The notes under the pieces are model-generated. The model ran no database searches. It had not been told where the DNA came from and saw nothing but the letters and a program-made list of their open reading frames with translations. The position numbers were made by a program, and so were the translations under genes. This document shows positions 6,700 through 50,689 of a DNA stretch of 64,000 nt, piece after piece. Position 1 is the first letter of the stretch. Every line of letters begins with the position of its first letter. The stretch lies in contig JAUMIR010000003.1 of assembly GCA_030847615.1 (NCBI GenBank), positions 288,666,265 to 288,730,264 of the forward strand. The letters run 5' to 3'. This DNA is from Gambelia wislizenii. Taxonomy: Eukaryota > Chordata > Lepidosauria > Squamata > Crotaphytidae.

Positions 6700-7654
6700 C
6701 CTCACTGCTACAAGAGAGACACAGAAATGTAGACAGAAGGATCTGGAATACCTGAAGGTCAAGCTGATCACATGGGCAGGAATGGAGCAATAGAAAACCT
6801 ATTCCTTGACCAAGAACTAAGAGAACTGTCAGAGTTTAATATGAACCACTAAACGCTGTAATTACTGTAGAATTTATTTTCAATTCCAGGTCTTCCAAAT
6901 GAAAACAAAAGTTTGATTTGAGTGGGCAATGTAATTTGAAAGTGTGCCAGCCAATCCTAACTGAGACCATGGTGGATGACAAAGTGTTAAACTCATCTGC
7001 CCCCATGATAGAATCTTAATTTAGACTGGGTTCTCCATTCTGACTTTTGAGTAAGGGAAAAAATAGTTGCTAGCTATGTCTTCGAAGTAAAGTGTAGTTT
7101 GACCTTCAGTTCTTTTGTGATGAGAAGCATCATAATAAGAGCCTGCTCAATCAGACTGAAAAGCAATCTAAACCAAAGGTGGAAAAACACTGGCCTGTCA
7201 TATGCTTTTGCCTAGAACTCCTAGAAATCCCAGGTAGCTTGGCCAACAACAAGGGACAGTGGGAGTTGTAGTCCAACATATCTGGAAGGTCAAAGGTTCC
7301 CTATAGAACAGGGAAAGCAATCCTGTGTTCCTCCAGAGGTTGTTGGACTGCACCTTCCAACATTCCTCACAACTGAGTATGGTGGCTAGAACTGCAGTTG
7401 AATGACATGTGGAGAGGCACAGAATTTTTACTCCTACCATAGACCAAGGATGGGAAATGTGCAGCCCTCCAGATGTTCTTGTACTAAGACTACCATAAAC
7501 CCCATCCAGCAGAGCCAATGGTGCATAGAAAAACATCTGGAGGGTCCTATGTTTCTCCATCCTGATCTAGACCACTTTTCTGTTTCTAATAGTAGCCAGT
7601 CAGATGCAGGGCACAAGGGCAAAAACCTTATTCTGTTCCCCAGCAATTGTATTC

Positions 7655-7705
7655 TTGTAGGGCAGGGGGTTGGACTAGATGGCCCTTGTGATTCTATGAT
7701 CTATC
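7655..7705 (+). mobile_element. CR1 LINE 3' tail scrap
   Basis: 'ggttggactagatggccc' followed by 'gattctatgat' is the characteristic CR1 3' end; compare 37120-37180. Confidence 0.8.
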
Positions 7706-7715
7706 TATGCTCTAT

Positions 7716-7759
7716 GGTATGTAATCTTCGTTTGCGAAGAAAAGCCAGAGGGTATGTAA
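7716..7759 (+). mobile_element. 26-bp LINE 3'-end insertion with 9-bp target duplication
   Basis: The direct repeat GGTATGTAA at 7716-7724 and 7751-7759 flanks 26 bp (7725-7750) that match the last bases of the zinc-finger LINE at 41346-41372: the hairpin CTTCGTTTGCGAAG followed by AAAAGCCAGAG. It is an extreme 5'-truncated insertion consisting of essentially only the terminal hairpin. Confidence 0.75.
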
Positions 7760-8065
7760 AGGAATGCTGCCTGCCTTGGACCATTAAAAGTTGTCTTGAG
7801 CAATAAAGGCTCTCCTCTGCAGCCCTGTTTGGACATACCTTCTCCTACAATCAACCATAATGCTCTAACATAATTAATCATAATATGGGGGAGAGTGGGG
7901 CCCTCCAGACATTAACTGCCTCTCCCACCTAATCAGTGCAACTGACAGTGAAATATGCTAGAAGTAGCAGTTCAACAATACCTATCTAGGTGACACAATT
8001 CCCTTTCCTACGTGTAATGTGTGGAGAGCAAGGGGCAGGCATCCAATTAACCATTATTTTTATTA

Positions 8066-8286
8066 CAGTTGGCACTTCATATCCATGGATTCTGTATCCA
8101 TGGATTCAACTATCCATGGCTTGAATTTAAAAAAAAATCCAAAAAAGCACACTTTGATTTTTCCATTTTACATAAGGGATACCATTTTACTATGTCATTG
8201 TATATAATGTGACTTGAGCATCCACGGATTTTGGTATCCATGGGGGATCCTGGAACCAAATCCCAGTGGATACCAAGGGCCCACTG
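8066..8286. mobile_element. Pogo/Tigger-like MITE with TA target duplication
   Basis: It is flanked by TA and starts CAGTTGGCACTTCATATCC; it ends 'accaagggcccactg' then TA. The inverted ends and the internal 'ggattttggtatccat' and 'ttgaa' blocks match 54100, 55971 and 62066. CAGT termini and a TA duplication are the hallmarks of Tc1/mariner-superfamily pogo/Tigger elements. There is no transposase. Confidence 0.8.
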
Positions 8287-15514: not shown

Positions 15515-18500
15515 TTACACACTAGTGACAAGGCCCAGCCTCTTTGTCATATCCTCATGGCTTCCTGGTGGAAGAGCTTTTATGAGTAGGTCTGCAACAT
15601 TGTCCTCAGATGGACAGTACCTCAGACACAAGACACCTTGTATTAACTGCCTCACATTTTGGTAGCGTACCGCAATGTACTTGGTCCTACATTTCAGATT
15701 TTCTGCTTCTGCCTTAGCTATGCAGGCTTGTGAGTCCTTGTGCACCTCAACAGGCATGTGGCATGGCTCCCCAAGGTCTGCAAGCATCTGTCTTACCCAT
15801 TGTACTTCACTTGCCATCTCAGACAAGGCTGAAAATTAAGCTTCAGTGGTACTAATGGCTACACAGTTCTGTTTCCTTGATCTCCACACTCTGGGGCTCT
15901 CTGCATACCTGACCACCAACCCGGTCACTGACTTCCTGTCTGAAGTCTCAGCAGAAAAAGAGCTGTCCACATACCACTCCAGGGTCACCCGACTTCCTGT
16001 CAGCTTCAAGCTCATGTCCCGGTCCCCTTGAGAAATCTAACTACCCTCTTCAGGGCTTCCTATTCAACTTGGAGACTCTTCTGCTGAACTGCAAAACTGA
16101 TGTCAGGCCTTGTGTTGCTTGCAATAAATAACAGACTGCCTACCACTGAGTGGTGCAGGTCTGGCCTTTCAAATTCCTGTTCTGCCTCCAAGTTCACAAA
16201 ATCAATGGTCATTGGTGTCCTGACCACCTTAGCCTCACTAAGCCCACACTTGGCCACAAGACTGTCAATTTTCTTCTTCTGACTTAGGAAAAATTCTCCA
16301 AGACCCGTTCTTTCTACTTCTACACCTAGATAACATCTCAGGCTGCCGAAGTCCTTTAACTTGAACTGGCTTTCTAACTCCACCTGCACTTTCTTGACAT
16401 CATTGGCACTCTTTGCTGCCACACAAAGGTTGTCCACATAGATAAGATAGCATGACAGCACTATCACCTGCCCCCTTGGTGTACACAGTGTCTGCAACAC
16501 TCTTTGTGTAACCTAGTGACACCAAACTTGGTGTATGCACTTGTTCCAGCAACATGTGCTTTGTTTCAAGCCGTAGAGCACTTTGTGTAACAAGTACAGC
16601 TTGCTCTCACCTGCACTGTCATACCCTGGGGCCTGTTCCATGAACACTACCTGTTCAAGATCAGCATTAAGATATGCTGTTTCAAAGTCAAAGTGTTGCA
16701 CAACCATCTGCCTCTTGGCTGCTACAGCTAACACTAACCTAAGACTTTCTGGCTTTGCTGTGGATGAAAAGGTTTTGTCAAAATTGGTGTAGCGCTTCTG
16801 CGAAAAGCCTTTTGCAACCAAGTGTGCTTTACACTTTTGTGTCCCATCAGGCATGTCCTTCAGCTTGTATACCCACCTGCAACCAACAACCTTTTGGTCT
16901 TTGGGCCTTTCAATTACCTGGAACACTTTCCTCTCCACCAGTGACTCGAACTCAGAATCCATGGCTTAGTTCCACTTCTCCCGCTCTCCCTGGGGAAGTT
17001 TTAGGAGATCCTGAAAGCTTGGAGGCTCCTCTGCCATGACATTGCATAGCCTGGCTTCCTGAACAACAATTCTGTCAGGAGCCTTTCTGACCCTTGTTGA
17101 CCTTCTGGGGATGAGCACCCCAGTTCTGCCTGAATCATCCTCACTTGCACTGCTGCTGCTTTCTCTCCCTGTGTCAGGTATAATGCTTGTTTGTGGTGGT
17201 ATGTGTGTTGAAGTGGCATGTGAAGTGTCAGGCTTTAATTCCTGTGCCTCCCCTTCATCATCAGGAATTACCACCCCTCCATTTGCAGGATTTTGGGGAG
17301 TTGTTGGCACATCGCTCCTCAAGGGAACAAATGCCTCCTGATTGCAATGTAATCTGTCCCACCCTGAGTGCATTTCAAAGTTTGCACTCCTGGAGAACAC
17401 CACCTTTCCAGGATGGAGAGAAAACACGTACTTATTTCCCTCATAGCCTAGGAAACGCAGCCTCCTGGTTTTAGGCTGCCCAGGTTTCCTTAGGTTCGGG
17501 TGAATCAGTACATTTGCATACTGTCCAAAAATCCTCAGGTCCTTAAGATTTGGTGGTCTACCATACAATAGACAATATGGGGTCTGGTTGACACTAGATG
17601 TCCACAGTCTATTTAAATGGTAAGCAGCAGTCTTCACCGCCTCCCCCCACAGCGCAGCTGGGGCTTGCGCATCTTCCATCATGCACTCCATTATGCATTT
17701 TAACATCCCAATTTTCCTTTCTACAAGCCCATCCTCCCCTGGAGATGCTGGGTTTGTGTTCTTGTGTTTTATATCCTTCCTACGCATCCAGGTCTGCAGA
17801 CTGTTGGATAAGAATTCCCCTCCTCTATCTGTCACCAGATTGGAAACCACATGAGAAGGAAATTCCCATTCCACTGAGTTCACCCACTCACGGAACCTGT
17901 CTGCAGCCTGACTTTTCTCCTTCAGTAAGTTTACATAGGTGTACCTAGTGTGTCTGTCCACTATCACAAATAAATAGTGGTTATCCCCTTCAGTGGGCTT
18001 ATAGGGGCCTGCTAAATCAGCATGGACAACTTCAAAGGGTCTCTTGGTGATACACTGGGTCTTTTTAGCAATAGGGAAAGCCTTCACCTTAACTTTTCTG
18101 CACACTGCACATTCTAAGAATCTTGGGCAGTGTTTCATGCTTAAACCAGGGCACACTTTTGCAAGCTCCTTTAACCCTTTGTAACTAGCATGGTCCATTA
18201 GCCTGTGGTAGTAATGAACACACTTATCATGTAGGGGCACATTGTCTGCAGGGTTCACATTTGCCACCTTCCCTTTAGGCAACATGTAATACAACCCATG
18301 TTTCTTTATCCCTTTTGCATAGACATTATTCATGTTATGATTTTCTGTTATTGTACAGTGTTCCACCTCAAATATCACTTTATAACCATCAGTAGTCGTC
18401 ATTTGGGACACACTCAATATACAATTCTCCAGTTCGCTAACACATAAAACATTTTCAAACTCTTTACCAGTGCCCATTTTCTGCACCTTTCTGGGAGCAC

Positions 18501-19452
18501 CACCTGCAAGGGTAATATTGGTTATAGAAGCATTTTTAATATTGCTTAACAGTTTTACATCATTTACCATATTGTGTGTTGCCCCACTATCAAGTAACCA
18601 AATTCTTCCCTCAGTACCATCAGGATGGTGCTTTGCTACCAAGGCATGGCTTGCAGCCTGAGAGGATGCACCCCTCCTTTGCCCTGTAGCTGTGCCACCC
18701 CTCCAATCCGGAGCAGGCATCTTACAGTCCTGAAAATGTCCAGGCTTTTTGCATCTGAAACAGTGTCTCACGTAGTTGCAGGCTCCCTCCTTCACATCAG
18801 ATGCCTCTGGGTGTGTTTCAGAGCTCTCCCGATTGCATCTGGTAATTTGTGGCTGTTTATTCCCCTCTGTCCCAGAATCAAATTGCTTGTGCTGGACCTC
18901 TTCCAGAATATGCCCAGCTACAATGTCTACAGACAAATCATGCTCCCTGTTGGTCTGCAGACTGTACATTAGGAAATCCCATTCCTTTGGCAAACTGCCC
19001 AATAAAATAAAACACTTATGGACTTTTGGAATGTCCACCCCTCTATTAGCCACCTCTAGAAAAAGCTGCCTCATTTCCTCCAAATGGGCTTTCACGCAGC
19101 CTCCAGTAGATAGCTTTGTGTTATAAAGTCTCTTAGTCCATATCATCTTTGAGAGGCAGGACTAATTCTGATGAACCGTTTTCAAAGCTGTCCAAAGCTA
19201 AAAGGCTGTCTTTGCTGGGGCCGTGTGTATTAACTGGGAGGGGCTGAGCGATAAGAGAATTACAGCTCTAGCCTTCTAGTCTGCTAGCCTGAATGCTGCT
19301 TTTTCATCTTCTGAACCCTCTGGGACAACACTTTCATTTTCCAAAACATGCCATAAATTGTCCTGAATTAATAAAGCCTCCATATATAAACTCCAGGCTG
19401 GATAATTTCCATCAGCCAATTTCTCAATACGAACATGGCTAGTATCTGCCAT
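15515..19452 (-). pseudogene. Copia gag-pol polyprotein, disrupted
   Basis: One minus-strand frame can be followed from ATG 19452 (peptide start MADTSHVRIEKLADGNYPAW). It is cut by in-frame stops at 19278-19276, 19164-19162, 16968-16966 and 16515-16513. The frame is lost near 16060 and picked up again at 15826-15515. Domains in order: Gag; a zinc knuckle CFRCKKPGHFQDC; an aspartic protease site LLDSGATHN; integrase with HADLAGP, TDRGGEFLS and VERK carrying the D, D and E; reverse transcriptase with CRWVYKLK, KAHLVAKGFSQ, YLNADLEQVV and LYGLKQS; and RNase H with DSQACIA and SEDNVADLLIKALP. Two key sites deviate: the knuckle has three instead of four residues between His and the last Cys, and the catalytic YVDD box reads YVDN. 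Confidence 0.92.
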
Positions 19453-22113: not shown

Positions 22114-23285
22114 TTCTCTCTCTCTGGCTTTTCTTCACAAATGAAGATTCAGGAAGGACTCATCCTGTGCTTTCTGCAAGCGCGCTGATGAATGAAAAGG
22201 CCAATCCAAGATAAACAAGTCCGGTTGCAGAAAGCACAGCAGAGGGTCTCCTTGGATGATTTTTCCGGGTTGTGATTCTTTCTGCATTGTCAGGGCGGAC
22301 CATTGTTGGTTATCAATTTGGCCAAGCCTGAGATGTTGTTTCAGAGAATGTTGTTTCAGGGAATCCTTGCATTGCATTTTTGGAGCACCCCTCTTACTCT
22401 GACCCGTGGTGAGTTCACCGTAGAGTATATTTTTTTGGTAGGCGATGGTCTTTCAGATTAGCAAATGCATATAGCGCATTTGAAAGACATTACAAAAGAG
22501 TCTGGAGTAATAAACACCTGAGGCGAAGCACAAAAATCAGTGTGTACAGAGCCATTGTACTGTTTATTCACCTTTACGGGTCTGAAACATGGGTCACCTA
22601 TCACCACTATTTACGACACCTTGAACGCTTTTTATCAGCGCTGTATACGGACAATCCTAAATATACTGTACACTGGACTGACTATTTGACGAATGTTGCT
22701 GTCCTTGAGCAAGCAGGGATCACCAGTATTGAGGCCATGATACTGAGAACACAGCTGCACTAGGCAGGGCAATGTGGGGATGGTGGTGTTCGTCCTGTGC
22801 TGCAGGCTGGTAAAGAACTTCCGTTTTCTTCTGGTTGACTTCCAGCCCAAACAGCTCTGCAGCTATTGTGAATCAGGATGTTAGGCGCTGCAGAGCTGAT
22901 TCTGTGTGGGCACAAGGGCAGCATCATCAGCGAAGAGCAGCTCATGGACTAGGTAGTTTAGAGTCTTAATGCGAGCCCTCAGACAGCTTAAGTTAAACAA
23001 GCTACCATCAATACGGTAACGTATATAGATGCCGTCTTCTTCTTCAAGCTCTGCCTTAGCCCTTTGGAGCATCATACTGAAGAAGATTGTAAATAAAGTT
23101 GGAGCAAGAACACAACCTTGCTTCTCTCCATTAGTTATTAGAAAGGGCTCTGAAAGAGCATTGCCATATCTGACTCGACCGTGCTGGCTCTCATGTAGCA
23201 AGATAATCATTTTAAGGAATTTGGGCAGGGGGGGGCATCCTAGTCTTTCCAGGATCACACCATCGAAAATGGGTGGGAGGGAGCT
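22114..23285 (-). mobile_element. Zinc-finger-tailed LINE, scrambled relic
   Basis: Three blocks come from one non-LTR element. 22764-23285 (minus) encodes the reverse transcriptase core: ITNGEKQGCVLAPTLFTIFF, then YIRYRIDGSLFNL, then ELLFADDAALV with the catalytic ADD. 22443-22763 reads on the plus strand: RVWSNKHLRRSTKISVYRAI, then LYGSETWVTY, then LEQAGITSIEAMILRTQL. 22114-22437 (minus) encodes the degraded GELTTGQ...RGAPK segment and C-terminal zinc finger, and ends in the 3' hairpin and a CT run. In sense order these are parts 1, inverted 2, and 3, with short losses at both joints. The clade is not assigned with confidence. Confidence 0.75.
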
Positions 23286-33249: not shown

Positions 33250-34182
33250 ATGTTTGTATTCTTGTCTACAGACGTGGAGAACTTCACATGCACCAAATGC
33301 AAGCTGGTAGCCCTCTTGGAGGAGAAAGTACAGCAGCTGGAGACACGGGTAGCTACACTTCAACAGATTCGTGAGCAAGAGGTATTCCTGGACAGAACAG
33401 AACGAACAGTCTTGGATGGGGACCACACAGAGGAAGTGGCTGTGGAGGAGAGGGTCACTTCACGGACACAGGAAGTAGACAGCTGGAGGAATGTCACACA
33501 CAGAACAAGAAAATCCAGGGATTCTTCCAGCAGCTTACTGCTACAGAATCGATTCGAAGCCCTTTCCCTTATCAAGGACAACGAGGAAGAACAGCATGGA
33601 CAGACTTCAGGAGTAGAGCAGGGGACCTTGAGAGGACCACCGCAAGGAACAGCAGCTGCGAAGCCTCAGCGGAGGCGTGTGGTGGTGGTGGGGGACTCCT
33701 TGCTGAGGGGTACAGAAGCAGTGGTATGTGGGCCTGACAAGATGACTCGGGAGGTGTGTTGTCTCCCTGGGGCAAAGATCTGTGATGTGACCGAGAGGCT
33801 GACAAGACTCGTCAAGCCTACAGATCATTACCCCTTCCTTTTGGTCCATGTGGGAACCAATGATACTGCAAGGCACAGTTTTCCCAAGATCAGAAGAGAT
33901 TATGAGGCCCTGGGGAGGAAGCTGAAAGAAATGAATGCACAGGTGGTCATCTCGTCTCTTCTGCCAGTTGAAGGGCATGGTCCAAGAAGGGAGAGGAAAA
34001 TAGCCGACGTAAACAACTGGCTCCGTAGATGGTGTCGCCGAGAACAAATTGGATTCTTGGATCATGGACTGCGCTTCCATGCGGGGGGACTTCTGGCAAG
34101 AGATGGGGTGCATCTTACAACAGTTGGAAGAAACATTTTTGCCAACAGTCTCAAGAATTTGATCAGGAGGGCTTTAAACTGA
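33250..34182 (+). CDS. CR1 ORF1 protein with SGNH esterase domain (310 aa)
   Basis: The protein belongs to the retrotransposon, not the host. Residues 14-17 form a CxxC pair (FTCTKC) followed by a short coiled coil (about 22-45, LLEEKVQQLETRVATLQ). From about 143 the sequence has the blocks of an SGNH hydrolase: GDS at 148-150 with the nucleophile serine, GTND at 202-205, and DGVHLT at 285-290 with the Asp and His of the triad. CR1-group ORF1 proteins are known to carry such an esterase-like domain and to bind nucleic acid; what the esterase acts on is not shown by the sequence. The frame is fully open. The ATG at 33250 lies four bases inside the element, so an original upstream start may have been cut off. 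Confidence 0.85.
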   Translation: MFVFLSTDVENFTCTKCKLVALLEEKVQQLETRVATLQQIREQEVFLDRTERTVLDGDHTEEVAVEERVTSRTQEVDSWRNVTHRTRKSRDSSSSLLLQNRFEALSLIKDNEEEQHGQTSGVEQGTLRGPPQGTAAAKPQRRRVVVVGDSLLRGTEAVVCGPDKMTREVCCLPGAKICDVTERLTRLVKPTDHYPFLLVHVGTNDTARHSFPKIRRDYEALGRKLKEMNAQVVISSLLPVEGHGPRRERKIADVNNWLRRWCRREQIGFLDHGLRFHAGGLLARDGVHLTTVGRNIFANSLKNLIRRALN

Positions 34183-34187
34183 GTCAA

Positions 34188-37100
34188 ATGGGGGAGGGAG
34201 ACAGTATTCTGGAAGGCAAAAGGGCTGGAGAAAATAGTCAAACCATCATAGAGGGAACAAGGCAAACAGCGCAAGGACCCAACAGTGGGAGGCAAAAAAA
34301 CTTGCACAGGGAGCAAGTAAAGGGAACACATGGTCTCAGATGTCTCTACACTAATGCACAGAGCATGGGAAATAAGCAAGATGAACTTGAACTTCTTGCA
34401 CTACAAAACAAATATGATATAATAGGCATTACTGAAACCTGGTGGGACGAGTCTCATGATTGGAATGTAGGAATAGAGGGGTATAACTTTTATAGGAGAA
34501 ACAGGCCAAACAGGAAAGGAGGAGGAATAGCATTATATGTCAGGGATATTTACACCAGTGAAGTGATCCATGACATCAATACTGGAAGCCAGGTGGAGAG
34601 CATCTGGATAAAAATTAAAGGGGAGGGAAACAACAGGGATGTTATTGTGGGACTCTACTACAGACCCCCAAATCAGACGGAGGAATTGGATGTTGCCTTT
34701 CTAGAACAGATGAACATACATGCAGAAAGGAGAGATGTAGTAGTGATGGGTGACTTCAACTATCCTGATATTTGCTGGCAATCTAACTCAGCCAAAACTA
34801 CAAGGTCTAGCAAATTCCTTACATGCCTGGAAGACAATTTCATGGTCCAAAAGGTGGAAGAGGCAACAAGGGGGTCAGCTATTTTAGATCTGATCCTAAC
34901 CAACAGAGACGATCTGGTTAATGGGGTGCAAGTGGTGGGATCCTTAGGTGAGAGTGATCATGTTCTCCTGGAGTTTGTTATACAATGGAAAGGAGAAGCC
35001 AGGCATAGTCAGACACGTATTCTTGACTTTAGGAGAGCTGATTTCAATAAACTCAGGGAAATACTGGGGATGATCCCATGGTCAAGAATACTAAAAGAGA
35101 AGGGACCTCAAGACGGATGGGACTTTCTCAAAAGGGAGATACTGAAGGCACAATTTCAAACAGTACCATTGAGGAAGAAAAATGGGAGGTGTCTCAAGAA
35201 ACCAGGATGGATGACTAAAGAACTTTCAATGGAGCTAAGTTTCAAACGGAACATGTATAGGAAATGGAAAAAGGGGGAAATCACCAAAGAAGAATTCAAA
35301 CAGATAGCGAACACGTGTAGGAGTAAAGTCAGAAAAGCTAAAGCGCAGAATGAGCTCAGGCTTGCTAGGGAGGTTAAGAACAATAAAAAGGGGTTTTTTG
35401 GGTATGTCCGCAGCAAAAGGAGGAAGAAGGAAATGATAGGGCCGCTACGTGGAGAAGATGGCAAAATGCTAACAGGGGACAGAGAAAAGGCAGAATTACT
35501 CAACACCTTCTTTGCCTCAGTGTTTTCAGAAAAGGAAAAGGAGGACCAACCTGAGGAGAATGGAACAGAGGACACAATAGGGGAAATCCAGCTCAAAATA
35601 AGTAAAGAGGTAGTACAGGAATACCTTCTTAATCTAAATGAATTTAAATCTCCAGGACCAGATGAACTACATCCAAGAGTATTAAAAGAGCTGGCAAATA
35701 TAATCTCGGAGCCATTGGCAATAATATTTGAGAACTCCTGGAGAACAGGAGAAGTCCCAGCAGACTGGAGGAGGGCAAACGTTGTTCCCATCTTCAAAAA
35801 GGGGAAAAAAGAGGATCCCAACAACTATCGTCCAGTTAGTCTGACATCAATACCAGGGAAGATTCTAGAACAGATCATTAAACAGAGAGTCTGTGAACAT
35901 TTAGAAGGCAATGCCATCATCACAAAAAGTCAGCATGGGTTTCAGAGAAACAAGTCATGCCAGACTAATCTGATCTCTTTTTTTGATAAAGTTACCAGCT
36001 TGGTAGATGAAGGGAATGCTGTGGACATTGCATACCTTGATTTCAGTAAGGCCTTTGACAAGGTTCCCCATGACATTCTTGCAAACAAGCTTGTAGAATG
36101 TGGACTAGACAAGTTAACTGTTCAATGGATTTGTAATTGGTTGACCGGCCGAACCCAAAGGGTGCTCAGCAGTGGCTCCTCTTCGTCTTGGAAAGATGTG
36201 ACCAGTGGGGTGCCACAGGGTTCTGTCCTGGGCCCAGTGCTATTCAACATCTTTATCAATGACTTAGATGAGGGAATTAGGGGCATACTTATCAAATTTG
36301 CAGATGACACCAAATTGGGAGGAGTAGCTAATACCCTAGAGGACAGGATCAAAATTCAGAATGACCTGGATAGACTGGAGAGCTGGGCCAAAGCTAACAA
36401 AATGAAATTCAATACGGAGAAATGTAAAGTACTGCATTTAGGGCGGAAAAATGAAATGCATAAATATAGGATGGGAGAGACCTGGCTGAATGAGACTACG
36501 TGCGAAAGGGATCTAGGAATCCTAGTAGACCACAAGTTGAACATGAGCCAACAGTGTGATGCGGCAGCTAAAAAGGCCAATGCAATTTTGGGCTGCATCA
36601 ATAGAAGTATAGTGTCTAGATCAAGGGAAGTAATAGTGCCACTCTATTCTGCCTTGGTCAGACCTCACTTAGAATACTGTGTCCAGTTCTGGGCACCACA
36701 ATTCAGAAAGGATATTGACAAATTGGAGCGTGTCCAGAGAAGGGCAACTAAAATGGTGAAAGGTCTGGAAACAATGCCTTATGAGGAGAGACTTAGGGAG
36801 CTGGGTATGTTTAGCCTGGAAAAAAGACGGTTTAGAGGCGATATGATAGCCCTGTTTAAGTATTTGAAGGGATGTCACGCTGAGGATGGAGCAGGCTTGT
36901 TTTCTGCTGCTCCAGAGACTGGAACACGGAGCAATGGGTGCAAGCTCCAGGAACAGAGATTCCACCTCAACATGAGGAGGAACTTTTTGACAGTAAGAGC
37001 TGTTCGGCAGTGGAACACACTCCCTCGGAGCGTGGTGGGGTCTCCTTCCTTGGAGGTCTTTAAACAGAGGCTGGATGGCCATCTGTCGGGGATGCTTTGA
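34188..37100 (+). CDS. CR1 ORF2: endonuclease and reverse transcriptase (970 aa)
   Basis: This is the target-primed reverse transcription enzyme of CR1. I place the start at ATG 34188, five bases after the ORF1 stop; the frame is open from 34029 but the first 53 codons overlap ORF1. The apurinic-like endonuclease spans about residues 48-260: NAQS at 56-59, ITETWW at 81-86, GDFN at 188-191 and SDH at 256-258. The reverse transcriptase follows, with YLDFSKAFDKVPH, SGVPQGSVLGPVLFNIFIND and the catalytic FADD near residue 704. The C-terminal part has [13 protein letters not shown] and ends HLSGML. Length and domain order are normal for CR1, and no stop or frameshift interrupts it. Confidence 0.92.
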   Translation: MGEGDSILEGKRAGENSQTIIEGTRQTAQGPNSGRQKNLHREQVKGTHGLRCLYTNAQSMGNKQDELELLALQNKYDIIGITETWWDESHDWNVGIEGYNFYRRNRPNRKGGGIALYVRDIYTSEVIHDINTGSQVESIWIKIKGEGNNRDVIVGLYYRPPNQTEELDVAFLEQMNIHAERRDVVVMGDFNYPDICWQSNSAKTTRSSKFLTCLEDNFMVQKVEEATRGSAILDLILTNRDDLVNGVQVVGSLGESDHVLLEFVIQWKGEARHSQTRILDFRRADFNKLREILGMIPWSRILKEKGPQDGWDFLKREILKAQFQTVPLRKKNGRCLKKPGWMTKELSMELSFKRNMYRKWKKGEITKEEFKQIANTCRSKVRKAKAQNELRLAREVKNNKKGFFGYVRSKRRKKEMIGPLRGEDGKMLTGDREKAELLNTFFASVFSEKEKEDQPEENGTEDTIGEIQLKISKEVVQEYLLNLNEFKSPGPDELHPRVLKELANIISEPLAIIFENSWRTGEVPADWRRANVVPIFKKGKKEDPNNYRPVSLTSIPGKILEQIIKQRVCEHLEGNAIITKSQHGFQRNKSCQTNLISFFDKVTSLVDEGNAVDIAYLDFSKAFDKVPHDILANKLVECGLDKLTVQWICNWLTGRTQRVLSSGSSSSWKDVTSGVPQGSVLGPVLFNIFINDLDEGIRGILIKFADDTKLGGVANTLEDRIKIQNDLDRLESWAKANKMKFNTEKCKVLHLGRKNEMHKYRMGETWLNETTCERDLGILVDHKLNMSQQCDAAAKKANAILGCINRSIVSRSREVIVPLYSALVRPHLEYCVQFWAPQFRKDIDKLERVQRRATKMVKGLETMPYEERLRELGMFSLEKRRFRGDMIALFKYLKGCHAEDGAGLFSAAPETGTRSNGCKLQEQRFHLNMRRNFLTVRAVRQWNTLPRSVVGSPSLEVFKQRLDGHLSGML

Positions 37101-40897: not shown

Positions 40898-40981
40898 ATA
40901 CCCATATACATTTCCATCTTGTCCCAGTCTCATATGGACTAGTATCACCTAATGTATTTGTAAGTGACTTAGTATATGCAT

Positions 40982-41381
40982 GCCGTCGTACTACTCTACG
41001 GTGAACTCACCACGGGTCAGCGTAAGAGGGGCGCTCCAAAAAAGCGATACAAGGACTCCCTGAAACGGCATCTCAGGCTTGGCCAAATTGATCACCAACA
41101 GTGGTCCGCCCTGGCCTCACATTGGGAGGCATGGAGACGCACTATCCACAATGCTGCAGCCTTATTTGAGAACTCACGACGAACAAGTCTTGAAGAGAAA
41201 CGACAACGCAGAAAGAATCACAACCCAAAAACATCACCCAAGGAGACCTTCTGCTGTGCTTTTTGCAACCGGACTTGTTTATCTCGGATTGGCCTTTTTA
41301 GTCATCAGCGCGCTTGCAGAAAGCGCGGGATGAGTCCTTCCTGAATCTTCGTTTGCGAAGAAAAGCCAGAGAGAGAGAGAG
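40982..41381 (+). mobile_element. Zinc-finger LINE 3' end with target duplication
   Basis: The 400-bp insertion is flanked by AGTATATGCAT at 40971-40981 and 41382-41392. It encodes YGELTTGQRKRGAPKKRYKD, then HQQWSALASHWEAWRRT, then a C2H2 finger CAFCNRTCLSRIGLFSHQRA plus C. After the stop come the hairpin CTTCGTTTGCGAAG, AAAAGCCAGAG and a (GA)n tail. It is the same family as 22114-23285, 7725-7750 and 50659-50689. The coding part is intact from the truncation point to the stop. Confidence 0.88.
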
Positions 41382-41552
41382 AGTATATGCATATATGTAT
41401 GTACATATGTACGCAGTACGAGTATGTCATGAATGTTTGTTTATAATGTTATTTTAGCACGTTTTATATGTTTTATATGTATTGTGATGCCTAATGGCCT
41501 GTTGGTTGAAATAAAGGTATGTTGTTGTAGAACTTACACAATTATCTTTAAA

Positions 41553-48141: not shown

Positions 48142-48904
48142 TATATCCTTTGACTGTTCATGCTATGTTTTTCCTCAGTATTAGTGCCACCCCATTTCTT
48201 CTTGTCTTCTCGTTTCCTGAATAGTACACTGTGTAGTTATCCAACTCAAAATGTCCCATTCCTGTCCATTTTAACTAACTCCCAGAACTGCTGTTTATAA
48301 GATCCATTTCCTTTTTTTACTATGTCTAGCTTCCCTTTACTCATGCTTCTTGCATTCCATGTTCCTATAACATGTGTAGTGCAGCTTCGAACTATTTTTC
48401 CATTTTTAAAACTTTTCTTTGCTGTCTGACATCTTTCCTGTTTGATTTCTTTTGTGCCCTTGTCCACATCCCTATTTACAGTTGCCCTCTGCTCTGCCCC
48501 CTTGTCATTCTGTTTGCTTCCTATCCTTACTTCCTGTTTTGTTTTGGGTTGTCTCATCATGGTGTTTAATGACCACAGAGGATTCACATAAATTCAAAAT
48601 AGACGATGGTGAAATTGAAATAGTGAAAGACTTCCCATTCCTTGGATCAGTCATAGACCAGATCGGAGACTGCAGCCATGAAATTAGAAAAAGGCTAAGG
48701 ACTGGGTAGGACAGCTATGAAAGAACTAGACAAGAACATAAAATGCAAAGATATAACACTGAGCACTAAAGTCAGGGTAATTCAAGCAATCATCTTTTCC
48801 ATCAACATGTATGGATATGAGGGATGGACAGTGAAGAAAGCTGACAGAAGAAGAAGAAACTCATTTGAAATGTGGTGTTGGAGAAGAGTCCTGAGGATAC
48901 CATG

Positions 48905-49933
48905 TGTCATGATGGCCTACCTAGCCATCATGGAGTTCATCTCCAAACATATTTCACAGCAGTGGAATTCCATTCGCTGGATTCCATATCATCAGGTATG
49001 GCTAAGGGGGTGGGAACTTCATTTCCTAAACATGACATCACATCACCTGACTGCCAATCAGAAGTTGGCAATGCAGACCCAATGAGATATTACCACAAAG
49101 ACTTTAAAAGTTCTGACCGTTCCTTTGTTCTGAGAGACCACATGCTCAAGACTCTGGTTTAGCCATCTGCCTGAGGGCAGATGGAGAGAGCAAAATGGTG
49201 TAATCAACAAGATGCAAACTGTGATAACAAAAGGTTGGGGGGGGGGAGCCAACCTTTCTTAAGGGCTTGAAACACCAAGGCCCTAAAATGATATCTGAAC
49301 CCCAGGAGGAGGCTTCTATCCCAAAAAGGACTCTGAATTCTATCTCCAGAGACTAAGAAGGAGCCAGCTAAGGTGAGCCTGACCCAGTATCCCCCTGGGG
49401 ACAGAACAGATGATGATAGACACCCTAAATTGTAAGTTATCAATAATCCTAGCTTAGGGACCGTCTAGCTAGTTTAGTTTTATGATTTTATTTTAGTGCT
49501 CTGGTTTGAATGTATAACTCTGTAAATCCTAAACTGAAGCCTGAAGGGAATGCTTTTCCTTCCTGTTAACTTTGAGCCTTGGAACTAAAATTAAAGTCTA
49601 TTTACTTTTCTCTCTATAAGCTTCCCTCATGTGTCTTCTCGCTCAGCTATCTAAAGTCCTCTGGGACAGAGGAAAGTGTGTTACAGATCTTTTAACACAA
49701 CCTGTCTGGTTTCTCACTGCAGCAGATGTGTAAGGGGAAAACCTCAGTGAGTGGTTGCAAAACGAAGAGGAATCCCTTGGGTTTGGGATTGAAAAAAGGG
49801 CCAACCCTGGACTTCTGGCAGCAGAAACTTTAGGGTCAGCCATCACATGGTGGCAGCGCGTCTTGAACTTAGGACAAGTGAGAGGACGGTGGGTGACACA
49901 GATTCTTCGCTGGTGGGGTAGGAGGTTACGACC
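48905..49933 (+). repeat. LTR-like repeat copy 3 plus short leader, inside BovB
   Basis: The LTR-like part spans 48905-49847 (TGTCATGATGG...CATCACA, 943 bp, AATAAA-like near 49590), followed by TGGTGGCAGCGCGTC (49848 on), the expected primer-site position. BovB coding sequence ends just left of 48905 and resumes at about 49934 ('aaagacaaacaaatgggtct'), so this is a truncated LTR element inserted into BovB. No coding region remains. Confidence 0.6.
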
Positions 49934-50658: not shown

Positions 50659-50689
50659 TCTCTCTGGCTTTTCTTCGCAAACGAAGATT
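50659..50689 (-). mobile_element. Isolated LINE 3' hairpin (about 31 bp)
   Basis: The minus strand reads the hairpin CTTCGTTTGCGAAG followed by AAAAGCCAGAG and a short GA run, identical to the 3' end at 41346-41375. No LINE sequence precedes it and I see no clean target duplication. Confidence 0.65.

Follow-up and report, generated by a model that had tools for sequence, protein, structure and literature searches.

A 26-bp LINE 3'-end insert flanked by a 9-bp duplication in the genome of Gambelia wislizenii

Insertions of the mammalian element L1 are characterized by 5' truncation, target site duplications, 5'-inverted copies, and a poly(A) tail. For the stringent-type LINEs ZfL2 and UnaL2, PMC4176376 describes a 3' stem-loop that is bound by the LINE protein, and for Bov-B a Tn-TA target signature is described in PMC13295347. 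AviRTE is an RTE-clade LINE of birds and filarial nematodes that has been reported in the manakin and tyrant flycatcher groups; its layout comprises a 5' untranslated region (UTR) of ~800 bp, a coding region of ~3.2 kb, and a 3' UTR of ~40 bp, and the two primers designed for its 5' UTR are spaced 126 bp apart (all according to PMC4844689). The accessible AviRTE literature that we searched names no squamate AviRTE, which is no proof that none is in print. Here we describe a very short insert in a 64,000-nucleotide stretch of DNA (termed the window herein) of the lizard Gambelia wislizenii, which consists of little more than the 3' UTR of a LINE with probable AviRTE affinity and is flanked on both sides by the same nine bases.

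Structure of the insert and its flanks

Read directly from the window, positions 7716 to 7759 contain GGTATGTAA, a 26-mer, and GGTATGTAA again, in this order. The features of the insert and of its immediate surroundings are as follows:

7648..7690, + strand, stretch of another very common repeat, ~43 bp, tail-like (matches of ~21 to 51 bp in many fetched loci)
7716..7724, + strand, target site duplication, left copy GGTATGTAA, 9 bp (direct read, flank comparison)
7723-7724, + strand, last two bases of the left GGTATGTAA (AA), which also match the LINE
7725..7750, + strand, LINE 3'-end insert, 26 bp, all of the 3' UTR except its first base
7725..7740, + strand, stem-loop TCTTCG-TTTG-CGAAGA, 6 bp with a 4-nt loop, −6.0 kcal/mol
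7741..7750, + strand, tail AAAGCCAGAG
7751..7759, + strand, target site duplication, right copy GGTATGTAA, 9 bp (direct read, flank comparison)

The original prediction, made from the window alone, was of a 26-bp LINE tail with a perfect 9-bp duplication, and this was confirmed: the tail is exact, GGTATGTAA is present on both sides, and identical 9-bp flanks around a 26-bp interval occur at 1 of 63,956 window positions, which is 7716-7759 itself. The length of the insert needs a qualification, since the match of 26 bp is exact but the AA that precedes the 26-mer is common to the LINE and the target, so that the LINE-derived part comprises 26 to 28 nt rather than exactly 26; one long genomic copy matches the insert over 28 bp at 100%. 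The flank repeat stops at 9 bp on either side, and the Tandem Repeats Finder list contains no array at the insert, so that the flanks are not part of a longer tandem duplication. That an unrelated, tail-like 26-mer came to be flanked by a 9-bp repeat through chance is extremely unlikely. When several bases of slack were allowed at both ends, a 9-bp repeat was found at 84 of 60,000 random window positions, but the exact geometry is unique among the positions counted above, and the arrangement recurs at independent loci whose shuffled flanks gave 0 of 3,394 such pairings (see below).

The stem is stable, though not unusually so for its composition, with 16 of 200 shuffles folding at least as well as −6.0 kcal/mol, and Rfam yielded no match up to an E value of 0.1 at window positions 7500-8000. 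The repeat stretch at 7648-7690 lies directly upstream of the insertion site; to us it reads like a CR1 tail, and it is perhaps itself a very short insertion.

The LINE that ends in the 26-mer

The 2.47-Gb genome contains 26,236 exact copies of the 26-mer (13,225 forward and 13,011 reverse), while the reversed control sequence gave 0. The exact 26-mer is absent from the viral and prokaryote collections searched, and the patterns used for the LINE protein recovered no relative from these collections either. Within the window, the 26-mer is identical at 26/26 positions to 41346-41371(+) and to 50662-50687(−) and at 24/26 positions to 22122-22147(−). The features of these further copies are as follows:

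40971..40981 (left) and 41382-41392 (right), + strand, 11-bp duplication AGTATATGCAT of a longer copy
40973..41344, + strand, LINE reading frame of the longer copy, C-terminal part, ending in ...MSPS and the stop codon
41346..41371, + strand, 26-mer of the longer copy, with (AG)n after it
50662..50687, − strand, second short copy, LINE match of 33 bp at 97%, without an adjacent duplication on search
22122..22147, − strand, tail of a longer, rearranged copy, 24/26 identical, with two pair-keeping changes in the stem

The stop codon of the LINE at 41344 lies 1 nt before the 26-mer, which gives a 3' UTR of 27 nt followed by (AG)n; the insert is therefore nearly the whole 3' UTR of the LINE. In the 80 copies examined, AAAGCCAGAG is followed by 0 to 15 AG units. 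That the insert reveals the 3' end of the LINE, as had been predicted, is true but adds little, because 18 of these 80 copies carry no AG unit after CCAGAG. The two stem changes at 22122 are no proof of selection, since both could be due to CpG decay. By eye, the longer copy at 22122-22427(−) seems to hold an inverted LINE piece.

Traits looked for in an RTE or AviRTE-like element are present. One is a 3' UTR that is very short and closes with a simple repeat (27 nt and (AG)n here), and another is the combination of endonuclease and reverse transcriptase domains, found in separate copies: PF03372 and PF14529 (endonuclease) in one genomic copy and PF00078 (reverse transcriptase) in another, all above the curated cut-offs. 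By sequence, the PDB matches comprised 10 reverse-transcriptase chains, from LINE-1, R2, and proteins similar to these. The designation as a "zinc-finger LINE" in the original prediction stands in part: a CxxC...HxxxC stretch is visible at the C terminus in the window copy and recurs in relatives, but Pfam matches at this Cys/His stretch remain below the curated cut-offs (best C2H2 match, 17.2 bits versus 27). The 5' UTR is ~650 nt long, as judged from the end of the inverted copy L040 near reference position 793 and the opening of the frame near 1440; the coding span covers ~3.27 kb and is interrupted by frameshifts in the copy that we read.

The LINE protein also shows weak similarity to a fragment at 48699-49085, which we take to be Bov-B. 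Other elements in the window are the remains of a Copia-type LTR retrotransposon at 16966-19161(−), with Pfam integrase core, gag, and Pol domains, and a second LINE at 34029-37100(+), with an open frame of 1,023 amino acids that contains endonuclease and reverse transcriptase.

Judged by its sequence, the LINE is probably of RTE type and resembles AviRTE. Both AviRTE 5'-UTR primers of PMC4844689 match L071 in facing orientation, 125 bp apart, with 4/21 and 2/19 mismatches, and they match again at the expected spacing in L050; ten shuffled primers (five for each) gave 0 to 5 single matches each. These two primers were the AviRTE sequence compared, and the remainder of the likeness comes from the layout and the proteins. 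The search for related proteins returned 2,977, and among the best 120 of these were proteins of Branchiostoma belcheri and Penaeus indicus (both 71%, over 100% and 96% of the query, respectively), along with proteins from the suboscine genera Manacus, Pseudopipra, and Myiozetetes (75 to 78% over 65 to 72%). An abundant AviRTE-like LINE in the G. wislizenii genome is a useful by-product of the analysis, and its presence here in tens of thousands of copies bears on the breadth of the spread of AviRTE.

Ordinary and ultra-short copies in the genome

For comparison with ordinary copies, we used 100 exact copies of the 26-mer from the start of C1. As measured by BLAST, LINE sequence upstream of the 26-mer extends over 16 to 1,102 nt in these copies, the value for long copies being a lower bound, since the fetched flanks were limited. 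Ultra-short copies are rare: none of the 100 has a reach below 16 nt; 12 reach 16 to 63 nt, and 34 fall into the zone of 64 to 383 nt. An exact duplication of at least 9 bp was present in 11 of 81 copies (9 of 78 when the three from the window are left out) versus 0.25% of 3,991 shuffled pairings; 81 of 83 rows were used for this count, and two repeats of one place were dropped. In an enlarged set with the search extended to 40 nt downstream, the count was 13 of 93 (93 of 100 rows used) versus 79 of 18,409. With a duplication score that tolerates mismatches, 14 of 73 copies lay above the 99th percentile of shuffled pairings (73 of 80 used; copies with a short flank or with a boundary at ≥1,000 nt were excluded), and at least one of these 14 high scorers, L054, lies in a simple repeat. 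A clear duplication is thus missing in most copies, partly because some are 5' inverted or rearranged: L013, L040, L041, and L053 are 5' inverted, as in twin priming, with ~750 bp of inverted 5' region in L040.

Further peculiarities were seen in individual copies. L013, L020, L058, and the window copy at 40989 begin at nearly one internal base, 351 to 357 nt before the 26-mer, which perhaps reflects a preferred stop or a deletion derivative. In L034 and L025, 11 bp of the 5' flank recur on the downstream side of the tail, at distances of 131 and 57 nt, respectively, possibly by 3' transduction or long duplication. At 50662(−), TTTACAGTA is present at the 5' side and again 27 nt past the 3' end of the copy, and a short 3' transduction is possible there; the chance of a 9-bp repeat within this range is 79/18,409.

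The target sites of the family were examined for the Tn-TA signature at 15 sites with duplications, namely, the 13 copies with an exact duplication and two window copies. TTT is found within positions −16 to −9, an interval chosen after the sites had been seen, at 10 of the 15 sites versus 14.2% of window positions, and T|A is found at 7 of the 15 versus 6.1% in the background. The site of the insert itself reads T|G, lacks TTT, and does not carry the signature.

Ultra-short copies were sought with three patterns, all of which require the exact 26-mer, so that decayed copies are missed. In pattern 1, the four bases before the 26-mer are all unlike the LINE. It yielded 18 places, all fetched with ~190 bp on each side: 9 are LINE copies with a local change, 1 carries an inverted LINE piece, and 8 have no LINE sequence beyond the 26-mer. 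Exact duplications are present in five of these eight (L094 and L110, 10 bp each; L093, 11 bp; L109, 12 bp; L098, 13 bp), and L095, L102, and L103 have none of at least 9 bp; in the null for this pattern, shuffled flanks reached 9 bp in 0 of 3,394 pairings. Pattern 2, which allows the shared AA, yielded 16 places, including the insert at 7716-7759; the other 15 were fetched, and 2 of them carry LINE sequence upstream and 13 do not. Among these 13, only L115 shows a duplication that reaches the 9-bp threshold (9 bp; null, 12 of 2,756). Pattern 3 (TGAA shared) yielded 25 places, which are outside the set considered below.

Together with the insert at 7716-7759, 22 ultra-short copies were obtained, of which 7 have an exact duplication of at least 9 bp; among the 21 others, 6 have duplications of 9 to 13 bp. 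The search that had been suggested for lizard genomes, for the 26-mer without adjoining LINE sequence but with flanking repeats, therefore gave a positive answer in the animal's own genome. The duplications of ultra-short and longer copies span the same range, 9 to 13 bp, with the lower limit set by the threshold. Alternatively, a longer LINE could have been inserted and a later internal deletion could have left its last 26 to 28 bp together with both duplications, and half of the pattern 1 places are indeed LINE copies altered locally next to the 26-mer, on its upstream side. Such a deletion would need to stop precisely at the boundary between the left duplication and the insert, not only here but also in the five clean ultra-short copies with duplications of 10 to 13 bp, and we consider this explanation highly unlikely.

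Duplications were found in 1 of 13 copies of the class with shared AA and in 5 of 8 copies of the class without overlap, both being small numbers; a joining route through microhomology, often without duplication, would fit the AA class. The duplication of L093, AAAGCCAGGAC, closely resembles the LINE tail AAAGCCAGAG, as though the tail had paired with the target.

When the flanks of the other 21 ultra-short copies were joined, those of 3 (L114, L115, and L119) aligned across the join with other fetched sequence; the stretches spanning the join numbered 17 for L114, 17 for L115 (perhaps with each other among them), and 8 for L119. In L115, GCATATAA is duplicated and is present once in the empty forms, and a few tail-like bases were added. 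L114 has a few target bases replaced, without a duplication, and L119 has neither a duplication nor a replacement, its paralogues being only 67 to 69% identical. A copy of the common repeat that L114 and L115 hit elsewhere in the genome is located at 8156-8260 in the window. Among the loci fetched up to that search, no paralogous empty site for the insert at 7716-7759 was found.

Two further candidates were set aside. A SINE carrying the LINE tail appears unlikely, as inspection by eye revealed no upstream sequence common to the short copies. A hot spot for stopping at the hairpin was suggested by the window, in which 2 of 3 exact copies stop within 8 nt of the stem base, but was not borne out as a rule by the C1 copies, where 0 of 100 stop within 15 nt. 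The stop rate near the stem, estimated by hand on the assumption that ~30% of random flanks pass such a pattern, is ~0.1 to 0.2% of copies per base, which is similar to the rate in the 64- to 383-nt zone (34/100 over 320 bases) and does not exceed that in the 16- to 63-nt zone (12/100 over 48 bases); we see no clear preference for stopping at the stem. Two ultra-short copies in one 64-kb window are more than would be predicted from 0/100 on C1, but we draw nothing from this excess, because the insert was picked for its oddity.

Proposed mechanism and comparison with known systems

The best-supported account of the insert, to which we assign a probability of about 0.9, is a severely truncated target-primed insertion of the LINE 3' end. 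The minimal target-primed event that had been proposed finds support in the identity with the LINE end, the duplication, the recurrence at independent sites, and the paralogous empty sites of 3 of the 21 other copies. Target-primed reverse transcription (TPRT) of RNA from the RTE-type, AviRTE-like LINE would have started at a nick immediately to the left of GGTATGTAA, and synthesis would have ended after 26 to 28 nt, when the stem-loop of the 3' UTR had just been copied. The other strand would have been cut 9 bp away, the end of the cDNA would have been joined, possibly at the 2-nt AA microhomology, and filling in would have duplicated GGTATGTAA. The order of these steps, the involvement of the LINE's own enzyme, and joining by microhomology are what we infer from the final arrangement.

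Several observations run counter to TPRT: the insert's own site has neither TTT nor T|A; duplications are scarce in its AA class (1/13 others); 3 of the 8 copies without overlap lack a duplication of at least 9 bp; and L114 has bases replaced, while L119 shows neither change. An origin as a patch of LINE RNA or cDNA in the repair of a staggered double-strand break, instead of endonuclease-started TPRT, would accommodate the absence of an exact duplication of at least 9 bp from 15 of the 22 ultra-short copies, the replaced target bases of L114, and the lack of the Tn-TA signature at the insert's site. The inserts nevertheless end at the LINE 3' end, usually with an AG tail (although the last 26 bases served as the selection criterion), and the duplications fall into the same 9- to 13-bp range as those of longer copies (with the threshold as the lower limit), and we regard break repair as highly unlikely.

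On the target-primed account, the insert is an extreme but ordinary case of a known process. Since the duplications of ultra-short copies lie within the range of longer copies, the second-strand cut appears, from the few cases available, to be placed independently of the length of the cDNA. A broader reading, which we put forward tentatively and at somewhat less than even odds, is that integration completes after fewer than 30 nt (stem-loop and tail) with the usual second cut at ~9 to 13 bp and that the family is an undescribed, very abundant squamate branch of AviRTE horizontal transfer. If it is true, completion is independent of how long the cDNA is, and all that must be copied is contained in the 27-nt 3' UTR. 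Such inserts are a natural experiment on the minimum of LINE copying that permits integration, in which 26 to 28 nt can suffice, with a duplication of ordinary length even when so little is copied. The 22 ultra-short events and their flanks should also ease the design of a minimal-tail retrotransposition assay.

Features of the locus and of its LINE have counterparts in several described systems. With mammalian L1, it shares 5' truncation, duplications, and 5'-inverted copies (L013, L040, L041, and L053 here), whereas the LINE described here has a stem-loop and an AG tail in place of poly(A). ZfL2 and UnaL2, which belong to a different clade, likewise have a short 3' stem-loop near the RNA end according to PMC4176376; ours is predicted from the sequence. 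The Bov-B RTE, according to PMC13295347, also has a short repeat at the 3' end, target duplications, and a T run about ten bases upstream of the duplication, but its repeat in reptiles is (CAA)n and not (AG)n. AviRTE differs in its hosts and by the 4/21 and 2/19 mismatches to its primers; it is matched in layout by ~650 nt of 5' UTR, ~3.27 kb of coding sequence, and a 27-nt 3' UTR with (AG)n, and the proteins that match the LINE at 75 to 78% include two from manakins and one from a tyrant flycatcher, groups that bear AviRTE.
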